Shown in pieces: positions 13,198 to 55,060 of a stretch of DNA of 64,000 nucleotides. The stretch covers positions 3,026,195 to 3,090,194 of the forward strand of contig FN649738.1 of assembly GCA_000310025.1 (NCBI GenBank), read 5' to 3'. The stretch is from Ectocarpus siliculosus (taxonomy: Eukaryota; Sar; Phaeophyceae; Ectocarpales; Ectocarpaceae). Below the pieces are notes generated by a model. It did no database searches. It saw only the letters and a program-made list of their open reading frames with translations, and was not told the DNA's origin. Position numbers and translations under genes: made by a program. Every line of letters begins with the position of its first letter. Within the stretch, counting starts at the first letter, position 1.

Positions 13198-16100
13198 TCA
13201 CGCAATCATCAATCGATTCGTGTTAGCTTTGACACCATTCTGCATCGGCCCACCCATCTCCGCAATCACCATTAAGGGTTGGTTTGGGTTGTCTAGGCCG
13301 CCACGGATGCCACCTGCTCTGTTCGATGACATTTTCAACACAACCCTGCAGTCAGGCACACGACACTTAGTTTCGGTTCATCAAAGCGGTGTTCCACCAC
13401 GCGGGCTTGTACACTGTCACCTATAATCCAAGCCCCTGTTCATCGTTGACTAACATCCACTAAGACCTGCTAGATAGTGTGCCAATCTCGCATGATGGCT
13501 GGATCTTGTAACCGCTCTGCTTCGCAACGGGAACGAAGCAAGAAAATTCCGAGTGACGCACGCGCATCTCTTTGGAAAGATCCCGGCAGAGAACATGATG
13601 GTGTAAAAACAACGAGCATCCTGTCGGCATGGAACGCTTCGCCACTATCTGCTTTTCCTGTGCGATACAGCCGCATTCACGGCGATTGTGAAAGAGCTGT
13701 ATCAATCAGAAGACAAGAAACGCCGAAGGTGAACTGTCCATTCGGTTCACTACACGATAGCTTTACGACAACATAGTACATCATACCTGGCTCTTCGAAT
13801 CGGTTGTCGCTGATGTCGAGCTCGGTGAGGTTGGTCAGCTTTGAAAGCGCTTCTACAGGAATAGGACCTGCGCCGGACGCAGCCACCGGCCGAAGAAATA
13901 ACGAAATCAAGCCAATCTATCCCGCGTAGTTGCACTCCTGTCGTCGTCACGTGTGGGCACAGGCTCTACAAGGGAATGGGCATTGACCCATGCTTACTGC
14001 TCGGACGAACTCGCCCACAGAGGTGTTTATGTCTGACCACCGGGCTTTGAATCCCGTCTCCACATTTGATAAGGGCGCGCAAGAACGAATGCTGGAAGTG
14101 TGGCTGGCGGGTCGATTATTACCGAGACGGCACGTAGCTTCTTGTCTGATGTCGACGGCCACGCCCGTGGTCAAAGCAACAACAGCATACCGAACAGCAT
14201 ACACCGAACCACGTGAAGGACGAAGACACTTAGGCGGTAACGAATGTTCTTGGTTCTTACCTGAGAGCTCGTTGTTAAAGAAGGACAGTTCCTTAAGCTT
14301 CACCAGCCGGCTCAATTGTGGCGGAATGCTACCTGCGACCAAGGAGGGGACCGAAGCCGAGAAAAAAGCATTCCAATTGAATTCCCTCACCAACCTACCG
14401 TTGCCAGTCGTATGTAGCAACGGCAGAAAGTTAGAATAAAAAAACAAGGACAACCATCGGAAAAACCGCGACCTTGTTTCTTGCGGTAGAGCATACTTTG
14501 GCACGTGGCGAAGGTACCAACAGAAACAGGTTCTTCGTAGGTTCAACAAGTAAGCATGCAACGATCGCTTCCCATTCAAAGCAAAGCAGCAGCGTTTCAG
14601 TGGTCATGGTCTACAAACGTAGAATGTACCTGCGGGTACAGTAACAACCGCGAAAACGGTGCAGGGTAGTGACACCGCAAGACTTGCTCCTCGGCAGTTA
14701 CTCGCGCGTTTTGTTGGTTGATTTTTGGATTTTTGGGATCCCACCCCTCATTCCGTCCAAGTTTATCTTGTGGCCAGGGGTCGTACTGTCAAGAATCATG
14801 GGTAACGCTTCCCGACTGATTCGAATACTGTCGAAATACCTAAAACCGCGAAGAGCAAAAGTCACCTGTAAGACGACTCTTGCGAATGAACAGCTTCGTG
14901 AGATTCGTCAAGTTTGCCAGTGTCGCCGGCAGGGCTCCTGCACGATGAGAAAAGCACGTCGGAAACCCATGATGGTGCGAAGAGGGTGGGAACAGATTGT
15001 CGGCAGTACGAATCGCAGGGTTTAGCTCGATAACGCCTCCTATTATCCGCGGGCAGAGCAGCGTGGCCATCGCGCCGCGGCAACCACGCGCTTCAATTAT
15101 TGACACACCATCCCAATCAACGCTGGTGGCATTTCGCCGAATACAGCGGGCATCACACCGCCTGAACCGGGAAAGCTTCCGTTTCCAGGCAATTCTACTC
15201 ACCGTCGATGCGATTGCTGGAAAGAATCAGCCTTTCCAGGTTCGTTCTCGTCCCCAGTGTGTCCGGGATAGGACCTTCATGGCGGAAGAACCAAGCGCAC
15301 ACAAACGAATTAGAAACCCAGGGTGGCGAGCCAACAATCAGGGCGCACTCGAACTTAAGGTTTCGGTATTCATAGAGTAAGACGGTCTTGATCAATGTAG
15401 CTTTCACTCTGAGGAGATGTAGCAAGCCGTCGACTTCTATTTACCTTCGTCCTTTCGTACCACCATCGTCTCACCCGTGAGCTCGTTGTTCCAGAGATCC
15501 AGGAGCTTGAGAGAGGCAGGCACGACCGATGCTGACGGAACCGGTCCTATTGATAGCAGGATTCAAGAAACTGAGGAGTATTAAAAGAATATCGAATCTG
15601 TTTGGCGGTCTCCTTTTCAAATCTCTTTCATCTGGCTCTGCCCACCATTTGCAAGAATCCGCACGAAGTTGCATCGGCAGCTCAGTCGGTCAATGTCGAG
15701 CCTTTGACGCAGTCTAAGGTGCAGCACAACTACTCCCTACGGCAAACGTTAAACCGACCCGCAATGGTACGCCAGGATACAGCTGGTGGGACAAGCTTTG
15801 TTGTTCGGATCAAATACCAGAAGTGTTCACTCACCAGAGAGTTTATTTTGCTGTAGGTGTAGCCCCACAAGGGAGGGCATTTCGCCGAGTCGAGCCGGTA
15901 TCGGCCCTGGTCAACAAAATCATCGCGTGGTGGCGTTGATGCTAGTGTAGGCAGAAATGACTCGGGAACCCGGCCGTTGTTTACTTGATACCCGGATCCA
16001 TCCCGCCTAGGATTTGTACCGCAACGACCACGATGTTCTCAGGTCCCAAACAGGTCTTCGATCCCTGCCGCAACAACAATGCTGACATCTCCGTGGACCG

Positions 16101-18564
16101 ACCGCTAGCGGAGGCAACGCCTCTGGAGAAGCACCCAAACTGTGCTCTACAAAACTAGCTCATGCTTCCCTGCCCGCGGTACGTAGCGGTGACGTCACGA
16201 GGCGAACGCTATTCGTTTGGCGCACGTTACACAGCCACCAAATACTTGCTACCCGTACCCGGTTGAGGTCCTGACGGTATCGATAGAGAATGCGCGGACC
16301 CGGTGCTTGCTCATTCGGATCATTGTAGTCGCGCTCACCATTGAGGCTGTTGTTGTTCAGCATCAGAGTCTGTAGGCGAGCAAGCTGGATCAATTCGTTG
16401 GGGATGCCACCTGCCGGCATTCGCAAACGAGCACGAGATTGACGTGCCATTTTCGCATCCCACCACAACACGAAATCGCCTCCTTACAGAACACAGCACC
16501 GGGGTACTGTTAAATCTCACACTGCCCACCTATCAATCACCCGAATCGTACTGGACCCACGTTTTTGCCCCACGCATCATCACGGGCGCAACTTCGACAT
16601 GACGACCTCGGTTTCCATCTATGCAAACAGGCCGCAAGCATGAAGGCGGAGAAACCTGAGGACGGGTGTATTCGAGGTCGTGTTCACCTCCAAACGCGTG
16701 TTCCCTCCAGTTATTTCTGCTCCAACGGCATTTTGTTGATTTTTCGGTTCTCGATTTCATGTCATGACACATGCCATGTTGCCACCCACGCATATCTTCG
16801 CACTCCCCTCGACAGATGTGGCAACAACTTATGTGCAAGAAATAAATCCGAAAATGTTTGGTGTGTTCTCCTCTGGTGGCTGAGCTCCAAATCAATGCAC
16901 ACCATCTCGCGTGTCGCAAGGTCCCCCCGTACAAAACCCGGGTTGACAGGGCTAAAAACCCGGGATACATCAATACTCACACCTTAACGCATGTACCCTA
17001 CCGCAAAAATATTTACCCGGGCAAGTAGGAATTCAACAGCCTCTATTTTTCTGCCTCTTTGCGCATATCTTTCACCAAAGACCCGGACTGCACTCTACCC
17101 GCGGCGAAGCGTATCCAACGCGATGGCAAGCCTTGACAAGCTCAGGTCGGGAAAAAAACGCATACGTACCTAGCTGAACACTTTCATCAACAGAAGCCGT
17201 CCTCGAACACACAACTCTGCTGTTGTGGACCAACAAAACAGTCAATTGTTGTATCTGACTCATGTTGAGGAAGCAACAGGGAATCTCAGTTGCCAGAAAG
17301 AACAGTTTCATGAGCGAGCCACTCACCGGTGAGGTTGTTCCGAGATAGGTTCAGGGTCTCCAGGTTGGCCAATTCGCCTAGTTCCAGCGGGATGGAGCCT
17401 GGACGTTATGTAGAAAAACGAACAAGTTGAGTTGACACGGATAGCCTCGGTAAGGCTTTATGCCCTGAGGCACAAGAGTCGGAATGAAGCTCGTGGGCGT
17501 TCACGACGATTCTCCATGTATATTGTAAGATAACCACGACCAACTCCCCACCGCAGAGCTCGATCACAAAACACCACCAACCTGAAAGGTTTTGTCTCTG
17601 AATGCAGAGAGTCACCAGCTCCTTCGCCGCACCGAGCCCCTTCGGGATTCGACCTGGGATAGGGATCAATCATACTCATCAGTCAAGCTCGGATCAGGTG
17701 TGAACTGTACCCTTTTTATGGCATGTGCATGCATATCTGTGAACTCATCTCACCTTCCAGAAACGGAAACGAATGGTCGCTTTCCTCCGAAATGAACTCG
17801 ATCTTCGACAACTGTAACTGATCCGCCCACCAGTGGTGGTCGCGAGCTACCTCCCAGGCCATCCTCATAGACTCGGGCTCATCCGCGTTGGCGCTTGAAA
17901 TCAACGGAGCGAGCACCTCAGCCTCCTGTTTCTTTCCCAGCAGTGCGTTCTTCAGCTCAATCACAGACTCCACCCTCCCCTTGGCCGTGGCCGCCATGTG
18001 GAACATCCTAGGTAAATCGTCCTCTTCGAGGCTGGCGAGAGCCTCGGCCGCCTTGGCCAAGAACGAGAACACCGACGCGGCGATGTTCATGGCTCCAGCC
18101 ACCGTGGTGAAGCCTGTCGTCATGCCGGTGATGGCCAGCTGCGGCAAGTCCTCCAGAACGACGTTTAGTAAGGGCCACGAAAAGTAGCGCCCAGCGCGCC
18201 CCGTGGTATCGGGGCAGGCCCCGTTCCTAAGCCATCCTGGGCAGTCCGTGGCCAACAGCACCCACGTGAGCGTCCCGAAGAGTGTGAAGAACAGGGACGC
18301 TTCTTTGAGCCCCTCGAACGATGCATCGTTCTGGACCTCGTCGGAGAAATAGAAGAACCAGTCTGTCACGACGTCAATATCGGCGGCAATCGAGCTAAGG
18401 GCCAGCGAGGAAGAAACCGTGTCCCTCGTCAAGCGTGCCTTGAGCTCTGGAACTTCCCACTTCCTGCGTGGGGTTCCGACAGCGGCGGTCTCCGCACGGC
18501 AGAAAACGTCGCACTGCCCGCCATTCTTCTTGTACAGGAACGCAAGGTAGAGGAGGCGAAGCAT
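13198..18564 (-). CDS. Multi-pass membrane protein with nine single-exon LRRs (membrane-LRR gene 1)
   Basis: Exon 1 (17754-18564) encodes 270 residues and a phase-1 donor. Segments of about 91-106 and 152-172 are strongly hydrophobic. Conserved signatures are DIDVVTDWFF (62-71) and LLNVVLEDLPQLAIT (132-146). The D-x-x-x-DW and ED-x-PQL motifs recall the XK-related (XKR) membrane family, which is inference. Exons 2-10 each encode one LRR of the plant-type GxIPxxLGxLxxLxxLxLxxNxLxG pattern: 17582-17653, 17327-17398, 16339-16410, 15835-15906, 15475-15546, 15203-15274, 14866-14937, 14261-14332 (72 nt each) and 13787-13867 (81 nt). All introns are phase 1. A possible terminal exon is 13198-13313, after a CAG acceptor and ending in TGA; this is weak. 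With it the product is about 527 aa. There is no kinase, ROCO-GTPase or NB-ARC domain. The gene is paralogous to the one at 50997-55060. Confidence 0.83.
13787..17653 (-). repeat. Array of nine single-LRR exons, gene 1
   Basis: Nine exons, eight of exactly 72 nt and the last of 81 nt, each begin and end inside a glycine codon (G|GN). Each encodes one 24-residue repeat such as GSIPLELGELANLETLNLSR followed by NNLTG. They are separated by introns of about 180-920 bases. Because lengths are multiples of three and phases identical, exons can be skipped, duplicated or exchanged without a frameshift. The last repeat is extended by three residues (DNRFEEPG). Confidence 0.88.
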
Positions 18565-28561: not shown

Positions 28562-31500
28562 TCACAACGCAAGCGCACCCACAGCCGACGGAGAACGCAC
28601 CTTGATAGCATCCCCCCCTCCCGCGGACACTTTGAAGCCCTCGTTGATGGTGTCTGAGGTGAAGTTCGTGGCGAGGCTGAAGCGATGGGTGATGAGAGGC
28701 TGCACGTCGATTGCGCTGGGCACGAATGGAGAATAGCGCAAGAGGACGCGAGAGTGAAAACACGCCCGGCTTGGTCTTGGTGTTGTGAAGCGGAATACGG
28801 GGGGGGGTGTACTCATAGCCGTACATGTCGTAGTCGCTAGACCATTGACCTCGCATTCCTACAAAGCCGGGGCGGAGCACGCCGGGTCTTCACCGGACGG
28901 ACCAACCGTACATGGGGGTGAAATAAAACACGAGCTGAAGGTTAGAAAAAACTCTGTCTGAGATTGCTTGAGTAGCTCCGATGTGCACATGCGTATAGTA
29001 TCACAGAAGGCAGAGCCGCAGCACAGCAAAAACACGCGTAAACGCGCACATCTTTTTGTAGTCACCACAAGGGGTAGCACCCACCACGTTGTAGCAGTGA
29101 GATCTCAACCACGACCCCCACCCATCTCAATACTCACCCCGATCCAACGAGATGAATTGCTGTAGGATAGGCGTCCCTGTAGCGGAACACGCCTACCAAG
29201 TCGACCTCCCGGGCGGCCGAAGCAGTGATCGGCAAGCTCATGATGATGTGACCCTACACCACCATCAGCGCCAGCACGCAAAGCAATTGCATGGACGGAG
29301 GGGGAGAAATCGTGTGATCGGGGGATGGAGGGGTGGGAAAGGGGGGCGGGGGCCGATGAAAAAGTTGGCTTCAGTGCCTTTCAATCCTGGGCTGGTTTTT
29401 AAGATGCGATCGAAAAATCCCTTCTTACATGATCAATCATCGTCGCCACAACCACAAAAGTGGACAACACACAAAAAAAACTCAAATCATCACCCGAAAA
29501 ACAATAAAAAAACAAACCTCACAGCGAAAACCCCTCATTTTCCCGCGATTTCCACAGCTGCCTCGGCTGTCGCCATCACCACTGGTACACCAACACCCAA
29601 ACGCTGCGGCACATAGTCTACACAAGCGGTGTAGGAAAAACGCGTGGGCGATGACCGATGCAAAATCTCACCATCCCCACGAGGCAAACCTTGCCCCCGC
29701 TCTTGGCGGCCGCCAGAGCCGTCGCCACGCTCGACTCAAACCCGCAGCAGTCCACGCATGCGTCCGGCCTGCGACCGCCATCTCCCACTACCTTGTCAGC
29801 GGCCTCCGCGGGAGAGAGTCCTTTCACGTTGACCGCAACGTCGGCTCCGAGCTGGTTTTTGTGTCGTGTGCAACAGGCGTGTGGGCGGGAGTGGAGACAT
29901 CTCACCAATATATATCGAATGAGAAGGGGCAGGGGGGGCGGGAGGCATGTTGGCAGTGTTTTTTGTAGGCGGGCAGGGGGGTGTAGTCGTTCTCCCTCTT
30001 CTTCGTGGGGTACTTGTGTGTGTTGATCGTTCATTGGTCGAGGCCGCATCTCCCGCGCACCGAGCCTTGACCAACCGCTCGAAATACGAGAAAACCAGGA
30101 CCCTTGATGTTTTGCCGCACACAAGTTGACTTACCAAAACCTCCAAAGTACCCTGCGTGGCGTGCAAACGTGTGTGAAATAATGCGCCACGTACGGCTTT
30201 TTGGTCCTTCGCCAGACATCGTCGGTGACCACCACCGTCATTGTAAGCCAAACCTCACGCCTTCGGCGACTACCATCGAGCCATCAACACGGGTCAGCGA
30301 TTCAAGAACATACGCTTGATTTACCTTCAACGAAAAGACCTTGATCGTTGGCGTACAAACAGCAGTGCGTAGCCCAAGGGAAACATAACTCTCACCTCTA
30401 TGGCGACCTTCAGCCGTTCGTCCGAGACGTCCGTGACAACCACCACCGCCGCCCCGAACGCTCTGGCGACCATCATGCTCAGAAGCCCGATAGGCCCGGC
30501 GCCAAGGATGGCGACCTTCTGCCCGGGCTGCGAGTAGATAAGGTTAAGGAGGGGTTTGGGGGGGGGGGGGGGGGGGGGCGTACTCTTCTTATGTTTTGCA
30601 TGCCTTAGCGGTTAGACTATTGACCACGCGTCCTCGAGAGGACGGAGCATTGTTCCCACAGGACCGATCACCGATGGTCAATCGTTCCTTCCTACTTTGC
30701 CAAAGGTGACTCAAAAATGTCTTCCCTAGTCTGTCTATCCTAACGATATCCCTTGCCGCCTTTTCAAACCACTTCCTACTCCCCAGTACAGCTACCGTCC
30801 TCTCCTCTGTATTCCATGCCTCAAACATCTCCCTGGACGTCCCTTGTACTTTTACCAGATCAGTCATGTACACTTCCCTCTCCTTATTGTACAGCCGACA
30901 TAATGCGACTACATGAACACGGTCTTCGCATTCAAAGCCGCAATCACATTTGAACTTGTCGTCTTCGTCGTCTACCGTCCTATGTCTTCGCCGACGTTCT
31001 CGAAGGCCTATGTCCCCGATCTTGAATATGACCTTAAGCTTTGTCCCTGAATCCATTGGTCCATGTAGGGAGTCCTTGAACCCTATTCCTTCTTTCAACA
31101 TTCCGTACACTTCTAGACCCTCCTTATCCTCGGGTTCTTTCCTTAGATTCTGTTCTTCTCTCTCGGCACCAGCAACAGATATCTTCTCCTTGAAACCCTG
31201 TAGACCCTCCGTTTCTAGCGTTTCATCTTCGTCGATGTCGAACCCCTTCCATACGTCCTCTACAACCTTGACCCATTCCGTGGGTTGTCTACCCCTCTTT
31301 TTGTTTGCCCACTTCGCCTCCCATACTGTTCTCGGCAACCTCTCCTCTCCCATCCCGCACCTGCGATACTGCCATGTCAACTTCCTTGCGTCTCTTCCCG
31401 ACCGTAGGGATTGGATCCCCAATTCTGCCCTGACGGCTGCATTACTTGTGCGTATGGAGCATCCTAGGATGATTTTCGCTGCTTGCATCTGCGCCGCCTC

Positions 31501-34500
31501 GAGTTCTTTCACTACCTTCTTGTTTCCTTCCCATACGTCTCCGGCGTACTCTAGCAGCGGTACGATTACGCTCTTCAAAACCGCCAATTTGATGCGTGTA
31601 TCGAGATGCCGGTTTGCGAGTATTGGGTGCAGCTTCCCTGCTCGTGCTTTGCCCTTTTCCGCTACCTTGGACATGTGTGCATTCCACGAGTAGTCTGTTG
31701 CGATCTCTACTCCGAGGTATGTGTACTGGTCCACTACTGCAATCTCCCGATCCCCCACTTCCATCTATGTTCTACTGGTTCCTCCCTGACCTTGTTGCAT
31801 ACCATGACGGCACTCTTCTTCTTAACGTTGGCAGACAATCTCCACTTATCAGTAAACTTCTTCGCCGCGTCAATTTGTAGTTGCAGTCCCTCAGGGGTGT
31901 CCGACATACCAACAAAATCATCCGCAAACAGCATTCCTGACACCGAAGTTTCCGTGTCCCCTACTTTTACTCCCTTCCGGACTGCCTCTACGACTTCCAA
32001 CAGATCGTTGATGAACACCTGGAACAATGTTGGGGACAGCGTGCAACCTTGTGGGACCCCGTGTTCAATGTTGGGGGGGGGGGGGGGGGGGCGTATTGCA
32101 GCCTTAGCTACTAGACCACACGTGCTCGAGAGGACAGAGCGTTGTTCGCACAAGACCGATCACCGATGGCCAATCGTTCCTCCCTACTTTTGCCATAAGT
32201 GGGCAACATTTGTGTGAAGACCGAACAGATGTTTGTTGAGGGACAACCGAACGTTACGAGTGGGCTGCGAGCACCGCTGGGGCAAGGACGAGAGGGAAAA
32301 GTGCAACTGAGAAAAACAACAAGTGTGATGCCACACGTCGATTCTAGAATAGGAATGGGTAACAGACACAGAGGATCGGGCAGAGTCACAAACTAGAATT
32401 CGGGTCCATAATTCCCGACCCGAAATAATGCCGAGCTCCGCAGGAAATATCGAAATTTTTTTATGTTCTTGTCAACCACCTCGCGCTACTCCGATACGTT
32501 TTTGCTAGCCACAGCAAAGCGGAAGGAAGAAATATTACGTCCAACCTGTAGCATCTGAAGCCCCGTCCTCCTTGTAAGCGTGGCTTCGATGTGTCTACTC
32601 TTGCCCCCAAGTCTGTCTATCAATTCGCCAAGAACCACCCTCTTTTGCATGCTTCATTCGTGGGTGCAACGTAGCACAATGCGCCAAGACTCCTCTCTAG
32701 ATTCTTCATTCATGACGCAGCGTCAACCTTCGCTCGGCGTCAGAGAGCTATCTTAGCACACTTGCCGCTATCCCGGCCCTCCTGCAAGCGTGGACGCCGA
32801 CCGACACAGGCTCGCACATGGCTCCCTCCTCCAGTGACATTCCGTCGGGGATCTTGTAGCAGAAGTCCGACGGGTGCGTCACAAATCGCGCCAACGAGCC
32901 GTGGACTGGCTGCATTTGTGTTCGTGTAGGAAGGGATAAATGCACAGTCGCCAACGACGTTATAGCAACAAAGGAGCCGAGGGCTTGTTACGGCTTGGTG
33001 TACGAGACAGGGGGAAACACGACCATCGAACCACTGAAACAGCTTCCCGTTATTTGAAGTGCCAAGCGCCACGGACCACAAGCACGGGACAAAGCGCAGA
33101 TTTTCTTCCGTTGTGTCTCCTCCAAGAAAATCTTTGGATAAATCACGGCAAACAGCAACAACACAGCACGCCTCCATGGTGGAGACTATCTTCTTTTTGT
33201 GTGTGTGTGTGTGGGGGGGGGGGGGTCACCCGTTCTAGACACAAAAGCAAGGACCAGACACCGCGGTGTTGTCATACCGGGGTAGCATGGAACTCCATCT
33301 TCTCGCACAGGTTGTAGGAGCCGGTCTTGCAGTGCTCGCACAATCGGCACGGCACGCCCGGCTCGAGGGCAACGGGGTCCCCGCACGCCAAGCCTCGCAC
33401 CGCGGACCCGACCTGCCGCCGGCGTTTACGATACCAAATGTGCGTGCGCGTGAAGGACGGGCGCACACGAGGGGGATCATGATCGTGAGTGCGTCAGGTT
33501 TTCGAACGTCGGCCCTTCGAGCAACACCGGGGGGGCTCACGTCCCTGGTTTTTTCCGATCAGGCTCGATGCGCCTCTGCCTCCTCGGGGTCCAAGATCAC
33601 CTTGCTCTTCTTGATGTAGCGACGCAAGGAAGGAGACTTACGGCACGGCATCTCTCAGCGCGCACATTTTCACGGACAAAATGCTCTGGACGTATTTCCT
33701 CCGACACGGGGAGGCGCGAGCGCGCCGTGCCGAACGGACCGAACCATTGGAACGCCGCCGCATTCGTAATCTCGCATCCGTAATCTCTGTAAATAAATAA
33801 GATGCCTGCACTACCTCGATCGCGCACGTCTGACAAAAGAATTACAGACATGCGCAAAACTCTTTTCCAGAAAAAACGAAAATAAGCAATGGACGCGTTC
33901 CGTTCATGTAACGCGTGGTGCCCATCGCGCTGAAACAAGAAGCGAAAAGTGCCGCACCTACCTCGACAACAACACCGGCGGCCTCGTGCCCGATGACCAT
34001 GGGCTGCTTCACCACGAAGTCGGCGCACCGCATGTGCTTGAGGTAGTGGACGTCGCTCCCGCAGATGCCCACGGCGCCCACCTGGTTTGGTTGGAGAAAG
34101 GAGAGAAGGGATTCATCTGGTGTGGTACCTGCGAGACTATTCCGGGATCATCATGTTGTAATGACCGCGTTGCGGTAGAGTGATTGCAAACCAACACAAG
34201 CGAATCAGCCCCCCCGTGCGGAGGGAAGTACTAAGGAGGCATTTAACTGGAGCCAGCTGGGTAACTCCCCCCTCGCTGCAGTTTCCGCTCTCCCCTCAAT
34301 CTTGCCTCCCCCCTTCTCCCCGTCTCTCCCCTCCCTCTGTCCCTCCGACCCTTCCCTTTCTCCTACCCTGACTCGAACATCGTTGGGCCCGAGCGGCTTG
34401 TCGACCTCCGCAGGGTGTGGCTCGACGCGTAAATCGTCCACCCCGTGGAGCCTGTGTGTGTGCAATGAGGATGGATTGTCGTTATCGCCGTACTTCTGTC

Positions 34501-47100: not shown

Positions 47101-49174
47101 GTCGAGTGTTCGGCCATGTGTGCCTCGGAGCCCATTGTTCTAAGTTCTCGTCAAGTTTGGCAATGTATAGCGGCGAGTTTTCCTCCCCCTGTTCCGTCGT
47201 GAGTAAAAACGATGCGAATGCCGTCTTTCGTTTGTGTTCAGATACATGACCCTATCAGCATGGACCGGGCAAAGTTTGGCAGGGGTCGCTTGCAACGTGA
47301 TTCTGACGTACATGTTACAATGTTTGAAGAACTGTCTCTCTGTCCGGCTGTGCCCCTCGCGCACTACCATCTCGTGTGCTTTCGTTTCGCCTTTGGGGTC
47401 GCAAACCGTTTCATAGCACACGGAAGCTGCTTCCGAAAAGTACGAGGTACGCTGTTCGGAGGCAAGCCTGACGATAGACGCCCTCAAGGTGAGGACAAAC
47501 AACAAAAATGGTGGGCCTTTGTGGTGGTATGAAATAGCTGCCTCTCGCCGTAAAACGAACCTGCTCAACCCAGCGGTGCACCACCACATACAGATCAGAG
47601 GGAAGTTGTGAGAGGAGGATGAGCGACAGTTCCCTCTTCGGCACAGAAATCTGGCACCAAGTTCACACATACCGCGATAAGCCAGCTTTGGGTAATGATA
47701 CAAGCCGTCGACCTTGCCATTGACTCTATCGTCCTTCCGGGTGACATGCAAGCCACAGCGAGCCCCGAATGACTTGGTCAATTGTTCGGTAGGACTCGCG
47801 CTTACAAGATGTTCACATTTGCTCGCCACAAAGATTTCTACAGATTTTTCACGAAGAACTACTGCACACAAAGGTTAAATGTACTCTCAGGAACAACGTC
47901 AAGTCTCGCGACCGCCCTCCCTTCTCGTCACTTACCACGAGAATGGTTGACCAAAACCACGAAAGTGACAGAGAACTTCTCTCCTGCGCTCGGGGGCGGG
48001 TGGGCAGCGCGTTTCTACGCTAATCCCTGAGCAATATCTGCAGTACTGCAACGAACCCTCTATCCGATTCACTGCAACAGGACGGAGTGCAGAACCTATT
48101 CGGCCGCGTGTTCGGGGGCGAGGCTTTGCCGGAGACGGTGAGCGGCGGCAGCGTGACCGACTCCAACATGATGACCTTCCTGGGGATGATCGAAGAGAAG
48201 ACCAACAGTCTCTTGCAGGTGTGCCGATGGCGACGCTCTTGATCCTTGTATCCTCTCCTATCTGCTCTGCATGTGTAGACAAACCGCCGGATAAGCTCGA
48301 GGAACACTCTCAACTGTGTACTCTCGCGTCACGAGGACCCAGGAATCTTAAAAGGCGTGTGTGCAATCCCGAACCGAGGCTCCTCGGTTAGAGAGCAAGG
48401 CCGTACGTAACTGCAAAATCAACGCTCATAAATAGGGTGACGAATATCATCTCTGAACAACGAGCCTTCCCCCCTGATCCCTCCAACTGGGTGCTTCCGC
48501 AGGCGTTCGCCCGCGCAAAAGAGAGAGAGAAAGTCAGAGCAAACGCCGCGGCCGCCTTGATGGCCAGCGGAAGCGAGCACGGTGGAGGAGAGGACGATCT
48601 GGGTATGGGGAGGACATTGGCGGTGGGCGGCGGGAACGGGGGTGGAGGGGCCGCGGTGGCGACGGTCTTAGGGCATGGCCCTCAGACGCCCATGCGCCAA
48701 GTGAGACTTCCGGGCGCGGGTGTTGTGTATGGGATTATTTATTGTTGCCACGAGGGCAAGGCCAAACAGAGCGGCTGGACACAAACCAATTTTTCTTGCG
48801 GTCGAAATTGGGGTGGCGAAGCTGCCCCCAGCGGTGAATTGGGAAAAGGGTTATCGAGGGACTTTATATCACCACCACCAAGCCTCCCCCGATACCTCAA
48901 CCACACCCCGTATGCCTGACTACCAACGACAACCCTCTACCCGCCCCACCCCTTTGGCCGTGCACGCTCTTGGCAAAACCTCTAGGAATTGATCCACGTG
49001 AACCCTCCAAAGCTTGAGGACTTCTCCTCCTCAGAGGAAAGTGGGAGCGATGACGACGATGCACGCCCGTTGACCAGGGACGAGCTCAAGGGTCGCACGC
49101 TTAACAAGATTCAGAGAAAAAATGCCAGGGAGGGGGGTGGCAGGGGCAAGGGGAGGGGGGGAAGGGGGAAGTGA
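41114..49174 (+). CDS. ODA1: Outer dynein arm docking complex protein (ODA1/DC2, CCDC114/CCDC63 family)
   Basis: Coiled-coil subunit of the complex that anchors outer dynein arms to axonemal doublet microtubules. Exons: 41114-41275, 42264-42377, 42749-42916, 43175-43258, 43662-43763, 44353-44451, 44923-45189, 45874-45957, 46282-46413, 46772-46834, 48081-48218, 48503-48700 and 48986-49174. Every intron is phase 0, giving about 599 aa (family about 550-670). Family hallmarks are the N-terminal heptads (LQQLQREYRHMELNRRAYAE), KNEDQNFSLFNYVNEQ in exon 9, NMMTFLGMIEEKTNSLLQ in exon 11, and the acidic tail NPPKLEDFSSSEESGSDDDD then RPLTRDELKGRTL. Exon 7 contains a Gly/Ala-rich insert and exon 12 a Gly-rich one, both unusual. 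The 1.25-kb gap between exons 10 and 11 may hide one more coiled-coil exon. Brown algae make flagellated zoids, so the gene is expected. Confidence 0.86.
45513..45846. repeat. Diverged tandem duplication (period about 183 bp) in docking-gene intron 7
   Basis: Two units, about 45513-45673 and 45690-45846, share GTACAAACGGTGACAGC, GCCCCAACCTC, ACTGGAAAC and a terminal GCAGAC-AG-GGAG. The second unit ends within 30 bases of exon 8. A minus-strand frame remains open across both copies, giving a twofold peptide repeat (LGVSSTG... and LGVSSSGKRVGF...), but it also runs antisense through exon 8. Confidence 0.7.
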
Positions 49175-50996: not shown

Positions 50997-53900
50997 CTAT
51001 CCCCACTCGTTCGTCCAGCTCGCTACTGATATTTCGCAGTTCGGGAATAGCTGCCCAAGCCTCTCTTCGTCCTCCACCCCTGTTGTAGAGCAGGTCACAT
51101 TGGGCGAAGCGCAACAACGGTAAACGAGGAAGGACATGTTGGGTATAAATGAGCGGAGAACTACATGCACTCGCCCTCCCTCTAGTACTTGAGCGCAATG
51201 TTCTGAGCAAAGGGCTGCAGATTTTAGAGGGATTTTCGCGAGGGCTTCTACAGGACGCGACAAGATACAGTGAAACGCCGCCCTTGTCCTGCCGTCGCTT
51301 CCTGGCAAAAATTCCGAAATTCATGCACAAGAAACCCGGAAAGCGAATGTTACTCCGAAACTGCTGCCGATAGGGCCTTCAAATATTGTTTGCCCCCTCT
51401 CAGCTCGGAAGTGAGTGCTCCCAAGATTTGGTTGCTACACCCCGCCGTGCCGTGCAACAATCCCCGCACATGTTCATGACCGGATGCATCCACAAAGCGT
51501 GGGTCAGCAGCAGCTTTATCACTTCCAATTTACTTGCCTAGGAAACAAAACCGCTCTCCGCCTCTCACCTCGCAGCTGACCCGTCGCGAGATTTAGTTGC
51601 TGCAAATCGGTGAGTGCCGCCAGCTCCTGGGGGATCTCTCCTGCGATCGCGACCGCGGAAGGGAGTCGGGGTGGTTGAATCCAACAAGAGTTACGGAGCT
51701 ACCAGCAAGGGGTGTACGGTTTTTCGGGCGCCAAGCCCAGCTGAAGTATGGCACCTGCAGCCGGGCTTGGAGTGGACGCACATCGAGAGTCCAGACGGCA
51801 GGCGCACGCTCGAAGACCGAGTCGGCTCGATGTAGTCGCCCGTGGCAGGGAAAAAAAAAACGAAATAAGGTCTAACGTGACCCAAAACACGCAAGCGAGG
51901 GGCGGCGTGTGAGCATGCGCACGACGAGCGGTGAAAGGGAGCTCAACTCTGTTTCGAGATCCCCGCACCTGTGACAAGGTTGCCGCCGAGGTAGAGCACC
52001 CGAAGGGCGCGGAGTGTTCCCAGTTCCCGGGGGAGCGCGCCTGCGATGGCAGTTGTTGGAGGCGACCAACGCTCAGAATCATTCTTCTGGTGGAAAGTTA
52101 CCGTCTGAAATAGGACCCATTCGATTCTCTCGTTTCGCGACCGACTGTTGTGAGATAAGCCGGGTAGGTTGGATAAAGCTTGCCCTCAGACGAATGAGAC
52201 ACGACGGACAACCGGTAAACATGCTGTCACAAATCCGACTTCTGGCGACAAACGGGAAAAAAACGCCTCCCCAGGAAATTTTACACGCTGAGGCTTCGCG
52301 CGGGTCACTCAAATCGTTACCAATGTCGAGAAGATACTTCGCGGTGGGGTCAAGAACTACGGATAAGAAGAGGCCGCCATGTTTGAGACTCACCACCCAG
52401 CTTGTTGCGATCCAAGTAGAGCCGCTCAAGCTTGCTCAGGTTCCCAAGCGCGGCAGGGATGGTGCCTGCCAACCATAGCCAAGTTACAACCGCACGAAGG
52501 TGAGGCGGAGTAGCGAAGTCTGGATTAGGCTGACGAGAGGAGAGACCACAAGTCAAGGTGAGGCGTCCTTGTCGGATTTAGGTTGGAAGGGTGGAGAAAA
52601 AGTGCCCGGGGTGCAATAAGTCGGATAGTGATTCTCATCGCTGTACAGAGTAGCGGATGCAAAAGCACATTCCGTGAACGGCCGAACAGGGTGGCGTAAT
52701 TGGCAGGCCGAGTGTTGTGTCGCGATGGGAAGTGGTAGCGTTAGCAACTTGTGTCGGGCATGTCATATAGGCCCCATCTTGACAAAACTAATACCGATCC
52801 TCGTCACTAATACCGATCCTCGGCTCCGTACTGATTTGTTCTCGACACCACCACCGCCAAACTACATCGAAAACCTCCCTTTGCGGAGCAAACATCTCAC
52901 CCGTAAGCTCGTTGTCTTGAAGGTTCAGCTCCCGCAGCTCTCGGAGGCCGCCCAGCTCCGGAGGTATATGACCTTCCCAGGAACATTGAATTCAGAGGGT
53001 TAAGGTCCACCGTGCGAATTTCGGTAGGGGACAAAACCGGTCGAGTTCGGCTTGAGGAATCATGAGCCCATAGAAACTTGGCTGCGTCACACTGCTGTTC
53101 CAATGTTTTTCAAGGTACTACCGACCCACGGAACAGAAGCTCACCGACCAGTCTGTTGCCCCCGAGGTTGAGCGTGGTCAAGGCGGTGAGGTCCCCGAAA
53201 CTCCCCGGGATGACTCCTGAAAAACGTGAGGCCGGAGAGCAGAGATTTCGAGCTCCGAATCGTATCCGGTACGCTGCGGGTCGCGCCTAAAGAGACACCT
53301 TCCGACTGTGCGAGGTAGAGTGAGAATTGGCTTGACGAAGAGTCCCTGCGCACTATGGCCGTTCTAACTGCTTCCGAACCAAGCTCGGTAGGGTGATTAC
53401 GGCGCTGCTTCTGTGCTCGACAAGCACAACCACCAGAAAAGCGACAACGACGGAAACGAAACCGCAAAGGTTGCCGCTCTCATTGTAGGCTGCAGTTATC
53501 ATCGGACAGTTGGCACGGATCGGAGAAGTCGGAGAGTTGGCACCACAGCAGTAGTGAGACAAAAAAAAAAGATAGTGCCCATGACCATTGATTGTCCCAT
53601 CCAATCCCCCCACTGGTCGGGAGGACCGAGGGAAGGACGGTCTCTATCTAGACCTTGCTGGCGAATCTTGATTCCGTCTTCACTCACCCCCGAGTGCGTT
53701 TCCATTGAGGTCTAACTCTGTTAGCTGCAGCACGTCTCCTAGCGAAGGTGGGAGCGATCCTGCACAAAAAAAGCGCGGAAAACTGGTCAGAACCGTTTGG
53801 ACAGCTGTTTGTGAAAGCGACGCAACTGCAATGCGGCAGGGGGTCCGGCAACCACGTCCGGACACCCGTTGGAAGGGCTACGGCGAAACGCTCACATGAG

Positions 53901-55060
53901 GTCAACTTCTAGGTATCCCAACGCTACGGCCGAGCAAGCCGAGACCCCAAGAAACACTCCTTGCCTTTCAGTCCAAAACGCCCGAGGTTCAACCTTGAAA
54001 CTTCCAGTTTCTCTCGAATGTAGCCCAACTCTCCGTTCAAGAAGCCGGGGTCCACTTGCATGACTTGGAAGGCGGTTGCCAGGAGACGCTTGGAATTTCT
54101 CTCGGTAGGCATTGCGGCATTCTCCGCCCCAAACCTGTTCACGAGGACTGCGAGACTAGCCGCGTTGGCAGCCAGCTCCTCGGCCTTGTGTCGGGCGTTC
54201 AGCAGGTGCTGCACAACCCCGGGGTCCGTGTCTATCATGCGCAGCTGCGACGACATGGGCAGATCCGTCCGGGTCGCGAACCCCTCCGCCATCTTGGCCA
54301 GCAGCGCGAACCCAGCCGTGGCGATGTTCAGCACGCCGGCCACCGACGTCGGAGAGGTCACCCAGGTGATCACGAGCTGCGGGATGTCTTCGACGACCAC
54401 GTTCAGTAGCAGCTGCCAGCCCAGGGGGACGTGCTGCAGAGGGCTGAGGGCCCTACCCCTTCGGCACCACGTCCACGCTTCGCTGACGGGGTGAAACTCC
54501 AGCGTGAGCAGGACGTACATGACGGTGCCGACGACGGTGAGCACGAACGCGACGTCAGCGACGAGCTCCTGCGCGTCTTCCAGCCCTTCCTGCAGGAAGT
54601 ACCAGTCCGCGAAGAGGTCCAGGTCCGACACCACCGACGTCAGGACCGTCAACGGCGTCACCTTCTCCCAAATGGCGCTCCTTTTGAGGGTCCTCCTGAG
54701 GTCTTCCGAATTGCCACCGGCATCCGTGAACGGTGAGCCCATGCTGTCTTGCCCTGCCGGAGAGGGACAGACCTCGAACGGCGACGCGCTATTTCTTTTC
54801 GCCCCGGCGTGTCGGCTACTACCGGTGGTGCCGTGTGTGCGGTACTGGCCCTGGCGCTTCCGCTTGACAAGGTCTGCCGGGAGAGCTGACGCCAGCGAAG
54901 CTTGTGCTGATGCGCCATGGTCTTCTTCGTCCACGCGGGTATGTTCGCCACTCAATTCGCCCACGCATGTCTGCCCCTGCGACGCCCGATGCTTGATGTT
55001 GGTCCAGCTGCAAAAATCGTACCACAGATACAGACACGCCAGGTACGCTAGCCGAAGCAT
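50997..55060 (-). CDS. Multi-pass membrane protein with six single-exon LRRs (membrane-LRR gene 2)
   Basis: Exon 1 (53965-55060) starts MLRLAYLACLY, matching MLRLLYLAFLY of the paralog at 18564, so this ATG is preferred over upstream frame. It encodes 365 residues: an extra hydrophilic segment (about 25-125), DLDLFADWYF (146-155), hydrophobic 170-187, LLNVVVEDIPQLVIT (218-232) and hydrophobic 238-257. Its donor is GCAAGG, a GC-AG intron, at the position where the paralog has GTGAGA. LRR exons, all 72 nt and phase 1: 53688-53759, 53145-53216, 52901-52972, 52394-52465, 51969-52040 and 51569-51640. A likely terminal exon is 50997-51079 (phase-1 CAACAG acceptor), encoding a Trp/Cys-containing tail ending SWTNEWG-stop. 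The total is about 536 aa. The architecture suggests a membrane receptor or scaffold with an LRR recognition domain. Resemblance to XK-related proteins is inference; no signalling domain is visible. Confidence 0.85.
51569..53759 (-). repeat. Array of six single-LRR exons, gene 2
   Basis: Six exons of exactly 72 nt, each splitting a glycine codon at both ends and each encoding one LRR, for example GTIPAALGNLSKLERLYLDR followed by NKLGG. Introns are 172 to about 470 bases. The fifth and sixth repeats (LVTG, QLRG ends) lack the usual N-x-L spacing, so the C-terminal repeats are less canonical. Confidence 0.88.

Follow-up and report, generated by a model that had tools for sequence, protein, structure and literature searches.

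What does a protein do that has a multi-pass membrane domain at one end and a plant-type leucine-rich repeat (LRR) array at the other? The question is raised by a locus of the brown alga Ectocarpus siliculosus, lying in a 64,000-nt stretch of contig FN649738.1 (hereafter the window; coordinates are positions in it, and genome searches were made in its own genome, G000, of 189 Mb). Gene A, on the minus strand from 18564 to 13677, comprises a first exon of 811 nt, in which four hydrophobic segments are encoded, and nine LRR exons behind it, giving a putative spliced frame of 525 residues. At least three genes, designated A, B and C, appear to have this membrane domain, domain order and exon type in common, and we see about an even chance that they constitute a small family of membrane-anchored cytosolic LRR sensors acting through a four-helix domain. 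In such a protein the four helices would hold charged residues, in the motifs D-x-D-x-x-x-D-W (helix 1) and E-D-x-P-Q-[LF] (helix 3), and would be followed by a helical linker and then, most clearly in B and C, by a half-repeat leading into the LRR array, with one repeat per 72-nt phase-1 exon. With both termini in the cytosol, the LRRs would read an intracellular ligand and signal straight to the membrane domain. The latter may be distantly related to the XK-related (XKR) lipid scramblases and correspond to half of one; any transport, ion or lipid-scrambling activity of the three proteins is put forward here as putative.

The first exon of gene A (17754-18564) is open from MLRLLYLAFLY, a hydrophobic N-terminus, to FLEG, and encodes the four-segment membrane domain and the helical linker before ending in a phase-1 GT donor (GAA G/gtgaga). 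It contains both of the motifs named in the original prediction for this DNA, as D62-x-D64-x-x-x-D68-W69 and LLNVVLEDLPQL. Downstream, with AG/GT borders and in phase 1, eight of the nine LRR exons are exactly 72 nt long (17582-17653, 17327-17398, 16339-16410, 15835-15906, 15475-15546, 15203-15274, 14866-14937 and 14261-14332), the fifth being an irregular repeat that failed the strict test; the ninth (13677-13867) is taken as terminal up to its stop, the alternative being a GT donor after 13787. The predicted in-phase joining of the long hydrophobic exon to nine LRR exons is therefore retained as the model of gene A, with the amendment that the gene could be placed only as far as 13677, and not to position 13198. 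The whole window holds 13 strict 72-nt phase-1 LRR exons, seven in gene A and six in gene B, against either none or one in each of 40 windows simulated with a first-order Markov model.

When exon 1 of gene A was used to search the genome, one further place was found at E<=0.001, within the same window. This is gene B (55060-51569, minus strand), which starts with MLRLAYLACLY and the domain of which is 31% identical to that of A over 189 aa (E 4e-19). Its first exon (53965-55060) has a long insert, the same four-segment domain and a proposed GC donor (AAAG/GCAAGG), and six 72-nt LRR exons follow at 53688-53759, 53145-53216, 52901-52972, 52394-52465, 51969-52040 and 51569-51640. A search with gene B in turn gave five matches: B itself, A, two pieces of a gene C on contig C18, and one on C458 (E 5.5) that was rejected as being at chance level. 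The pieces of gene C matched with E values of 3.6e-23 and 5.9e-5, the latter match having one internal stop and extending beyond the proposed exon border. In gene C the domain is spread over several exons, and of the seven LRR exons behind them six have 72 nt and one has 75 nt; a likely start exon (MMYLVFLAFLYKL) lies upstream, adjoining a stretch of N that comes directly after it (L009:721-820). Searches for the 3' ends of genes B and C gave nothing convincing, and a search for relatives in viral contigs gave 52 pattern matches, none of which was confirmed. Hence the same type of N-terminal piece followed by LRR exons, which had been proposed as something to look for in brown algal genomes, recurs twice in the genome of gene A itself.

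The 72-nt exons with a shared codon split number eight of nine in gene A, all six of those found in B and six of the seven found in C. By eye, the end of the N-terminal piece in both B (SRLNLGRFGLKG) and C (SRLYITASSLTG) is half an LRR running into the array, a feature less clear at the equivalent junction of gene A; because this half-repeat leads from the one part into the other, genes B and C seem each to encode one continuous protein. It could be argued that the gene models are wrong, exon 1 being a separate short gene and the LRR exons part of another, given that exon 1 of gene A could extend around 12 codons beyond its donor to a stop. However, the three paralogs share this neighbourhood and phase, which, together with the half-repeats in B and C, makes such an error very improbable.

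The repeats themselves are of plant type, as had been predicted. In all three spliced proteins both LRR_1 and LRR_8 exceed their Pfam cut-offs (the LRR_1 E values for A, B and C being 1.1e-21, 2.9e-21 and 2.9e-22), and the repeats fit the plant-type consensus LxxLxxLxLxxNxLxGxIP. Among the best 60 of 336 distinct PDB sequences matched by the gene A LRRs at E<=0.001, plant receptor kinases came highest, with GSO1 first; the matches include the ectodomains of GSO1, PEPR1 and FLS2, whilst the cytosolic LRR scaffold SHOC-2 matches less well. Consistent with the claim that ROCO-GTPase and NB-ARC domains are missing from gene A, the spliced sequences of A, B and C (the last two lacking their 3' ends) had no Pfam match to ROC-COR or NB-ARC at E<=1, nor any to a kinase domain. 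A COR-A search of the genome gave one match only, such searches being liable to miss matches.

The exon type does not appear to be general among the LRR loci sampled, since six 10-kb stretches chosen around LRR_1 matches (65 matches listed) held 2, 2, 0, 0, 0 and 0 strict 72-nt exons. Under the same strict rule, the gene strand of the four stretches with LRR-XKR genes, described below, held 6, 4, 7 and 4. Comparison of 42 LRR exons, from which the 75-nt exon of gene C and the last exon of gene A were left out, gave a mean identity of 51% over all pairs, and none of the 20 exons from genes A, B and C was more than 64% identical to any other of the 42. Recent LRR exon duplication was therefore not seen in these genes, and recent shuffling of LRRs is unsupported for gene A.

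Four hydrophobic segments are common to A, B and C in an alignment of their membrane domains, with D.D...DW.F (segment 1) and NV..ED.PQ..IT (segment 3) among the columns that do not vary. Charged residues within the helices are the best conserved in the domain, which is more than an anchor would need. This bears on a reading in which the four helices are a mere anchor and the LRRs are a scaffold for protein contacts in development or signalling, with no direct output at the membrane. The match of the LRR part to SHOC-2, though poorer than that to plant receptors, is in keeping with it, as is the want of recent exon duplication, contrary to what would be expected of fast-evolving recognition; with the conserved charges set against these points, we regard a scaffold of this type as possible but somewhat unlikely.

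Charges were counted as lysine plus arginine against aspartate plus glutamate, with the segment borders set by hand, and gave 10/5 for the N-terminus, 1/5 for loop 1 and 3/2 for loop 2 in gene A, the corresponding values in gene B being 17/14, 0/4 and 3/2. Since the N-terminus and the second loop are basic, and the first loop is acidic, an arrangement with both termini inside is favoured, and the LRRs of A and B would lie on the cytosolic side. Hence, of the membrane receptor originally proposed, the multi-pass domain with its LRRs stands, whereas a position of those LRRs outside the cell is doubtful.

Quite separately from A, B and C, the genome very probably contains fusions of LRR arrays to true XKR domains, a family of which XKR8 and XKR9 are scramblases. 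A search with PF09815, for which the cut-off is 24.8 bits, gave five loci above that value (on C8, C476, C477, C16 and C30), with scores of 53.9, 56.0 and 57.8 for the three long XKR exons. At four of the five (C8, C476, C477 and C16) the XKR exon opens with half an LRR (e.g. GPIPLEV) directly after an AG, and no methionine occurs between the preceding in-frame stop and the start of this half-repeat; the first methionine is found in helix 2 or later in three of these exons, and before helix 1 in that on C476. Within 10 kb upstream, on the gene strand, there are seven 72-nt LRR exons at C8, four at C476, seven at C477 and four at C16, such that the order, with LRRs first and XKR last, is the reverse of that in A, B and C. 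Some LRR exons within the C8 and C477 genes are 81-90% identical, and a block of three appears doubled at C8, which we take as a sign of recent exon duplication in both.

No LRR exons were found near the fifth XKR locus, a fragment on C30 in which a longer match contains a stop, or near a further broken match on this contig below the PF09815 cut-off; both are probably decayed copies. A search upstream of the LRR-XKR genes for a shared N-terminal exon returned only LRR and XKR-exon matches and one match of 38 residues, apparently an LRR exon read in a different frame, and matches below the cut-off on C361, C206 and C6 yielded nothing useful on inspection. At C28:803200-809600 (minus strand) an XKR-like domain scores 20.7 bits, also under the cut-off, in one gene region with a hydrophobic segment, a linker rich in proline and repeats that by eye resemble beta-propeller units; this points to a further sensor coupled to an XKR-like module.

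Several observations weigh against the sensor reading, in its gene models, in its membrane domain and in its tentative link to the XKR proteins. Exon 1 of gene B keeps phase only with a GC donor. A hydropathy cut-off alone marks just two segments in A and three in B, with four in C. Neither Pfam, NCBIfam nor the sequences of PDB gave a significant match to the membrane domain (a Pfam BAGE match of gene A, E 2.5, and four virion RNA polymerase chains, E 0.29-0.4, were dropped as chance), so that the proposed profile check against XKR and other families identified no relative. AlphaFold2 models of the A and B domains, responding to a call for structure prediction, do place helices where expected, but with a predicted local distance difference test value (pLDDT) of 44 they are too poor for fold searches, made with one of the two, to be informative; that no XKR chain stood among the fold matches listed is accordingly not counted as evidence. 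Finally, the C-tail of gene A is net acidic, with 9 basic and 20 acidic residues (13 and 12 in gene B), which weighs against a cytosolic tail under the positive-inside rule. The acidic tail, along with the plant ectodomains at the head of the PDB matches, would suit the opposite topology, in which the LRRs are extracellular as in plant LRR receptors. The loop charges of A and B favour the cytosolic arrangement, however, and by analogy only, the LRRs of the ROCO proteins LRRK2 and MASL1 have been suggested to act as cytoplasmic receptors (PMC11378527); we judge extracellular LRRs to be quite unlikely.

The resemblance to XKR proteins, suggested in the original prediction from the ED-x-PQL motif, survives in the motifs, their order and their spacing, and is weak in profile comparison. 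Sequences of the form D..[STA]D and then an E[SD].PQ[LF]-like motif are shared in the same order by A, B and C and the XKRs, 74-76 residues apart in the former and 84-90 in the four XKRs and the XKR-like protein on C28. Over 486,930 six-frame residues of all the retrieved DNA, [EQ][SDN].P[QM][LF] occurs in 15 rows at nine distinct places, all of which lie either in the three genes or in domains of XKR type; the agreement is specific but suggestive only, because the patterns were chosen after the sequences had been seen and the loci were selected for having such domains. PF09815 has no match to A or B at E<=10 or to spliced C at E<=1; its genome matches at E<=10 number 17, and all of them lie outside these three genes. 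When aligned with the XKRs of the same genome by hhalign, the domain reached a probability of 0.4% against the whole, 0.8% against the N-terminal half and 2.1% with the C28 protein added, and shuffled profiles did as well in 5 of 60 cases for the N-terminal half and 3 of 120 with C28; the C-terminal half gave 0.2%, with 20 of 60 shuffles as good, and a reversed-profile control scored 13.4 compared to 17.7 forward. A phmmer search of PDB with the C8 XKR exon returned nothing at E<=10, so that a search of this type lacks the power to recognise even a true XKR. XKR identity of the domain in A, B and C is therefore not established.

It may nevertheless be that this domain is a diverged XKR half, and that ligand binding by the LRRs triggers lipid scrambling, perhaps in a dimer. 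The ordered motifs argue for this, as does the fact that LRR exons of this type are joined to true XKR domains elsewhere in the genome, whereas the failure of PF09815 to find the three genes, hhalign values of 2.1% at best and the lack of a recognised second XKR half downstream argue against it; we think it possible, though we are inclined to doubt it. A wider version, which we would call unlikely, is that brown algae have a class of intracellular receptors in which LRR arrays with one exon per repeat are wired directly, in both orders, to XKR or XKR-like domains, such that a ligand would switch lipid scrambling or a leak of the membrane with no kinase, GTPase or NB-ARC relay.

Other features of the window and genome were noted in passing. 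Between genes A and B, a region on the plus strand (48085-49170) seems on inspection to hold exons of an unrelated gene with a low-complexity tail, and a 391-aa open frame on the minus strand (30592-31764) we take by eye to resemble part of a non-LTR (long terminal repeat) retroelement polymerase. The genome has at least 150 motifs of the EsV-1-7 family, which is typical of brown algae (150 of 880 candidates scored).

Our search of the literature, in which most subscription journals were outside coverage, showed no paper on fusions of the A/B/C or LRR-XKR type in algae or stramenopiles among those listed; judged by title and the opening of the abstract, PMC11378527 alone of these dealt with shuffled LRR exons. 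Brown algae evolved multicellularity separately. The arrangement of the genes described here suggests sensors with a direct connection to the membrane. If both an orphan four-helix domain and a true XKR are joined to one type of LRR exon, that exon may well serve recognition in general, as a cassette, and it would become possible to test whether recognition is linked directly to the lipid asymmetry of membranes. The simplest account is that the lineage combines a single LRR exon cassette with different outputs, namely the published ROCO, true XKR domains and the four-helix orphan.

The candidate brown algal immune receptors with one exon per repeat that are described in PMC11378527 (Teng 2024) are of the LRR-ROCO and NB-ARC-TPR types. 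Each LRR of the former is encoded by a 72-bp exon, with nucleotides 3-71 coding, and most LRR exons of A, B and C have the same length and codon split; Zambounis 2012, as cited there, also treats the LRR-ROCO genes. The same source reports 15 non-ROCO sequences with such LRR exons in the kelp S. japonica, most with LRR motifs only; relatives of gene A may be among them, and consequently parts of these architectures may have been seen earlier without being described. Unlike the LRR-ROCO genes, A, B and C have no ROC-COR match, have a membrane domain instead and show no recent LRR exon duplication. With the LRR-XKR genes on C8, C476, C477 and C16 they share the 72-nt phase-1 LRR exons and related membrane-domain motifs, but those genes have their LRRs first, an XKR domain over the Pfam cut-off and, in C8 and C477, exons that are 81-90% alike. 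With XK-related proteins in general they share both motifs in order and at similar spacing, but they lack a Pfam match, mirror the XKR domain only up to the second motif and have an LRR array behind it. They resemble plant LRR receptor kinases such as GSO1, PEPR1 and FLS2 in their repeat consensus; however, the plant proteins have one membrane helix rather than four, and A, B and C have no kinase match, place the membrane part first and are predicted to hold their LRRs inside the cell.

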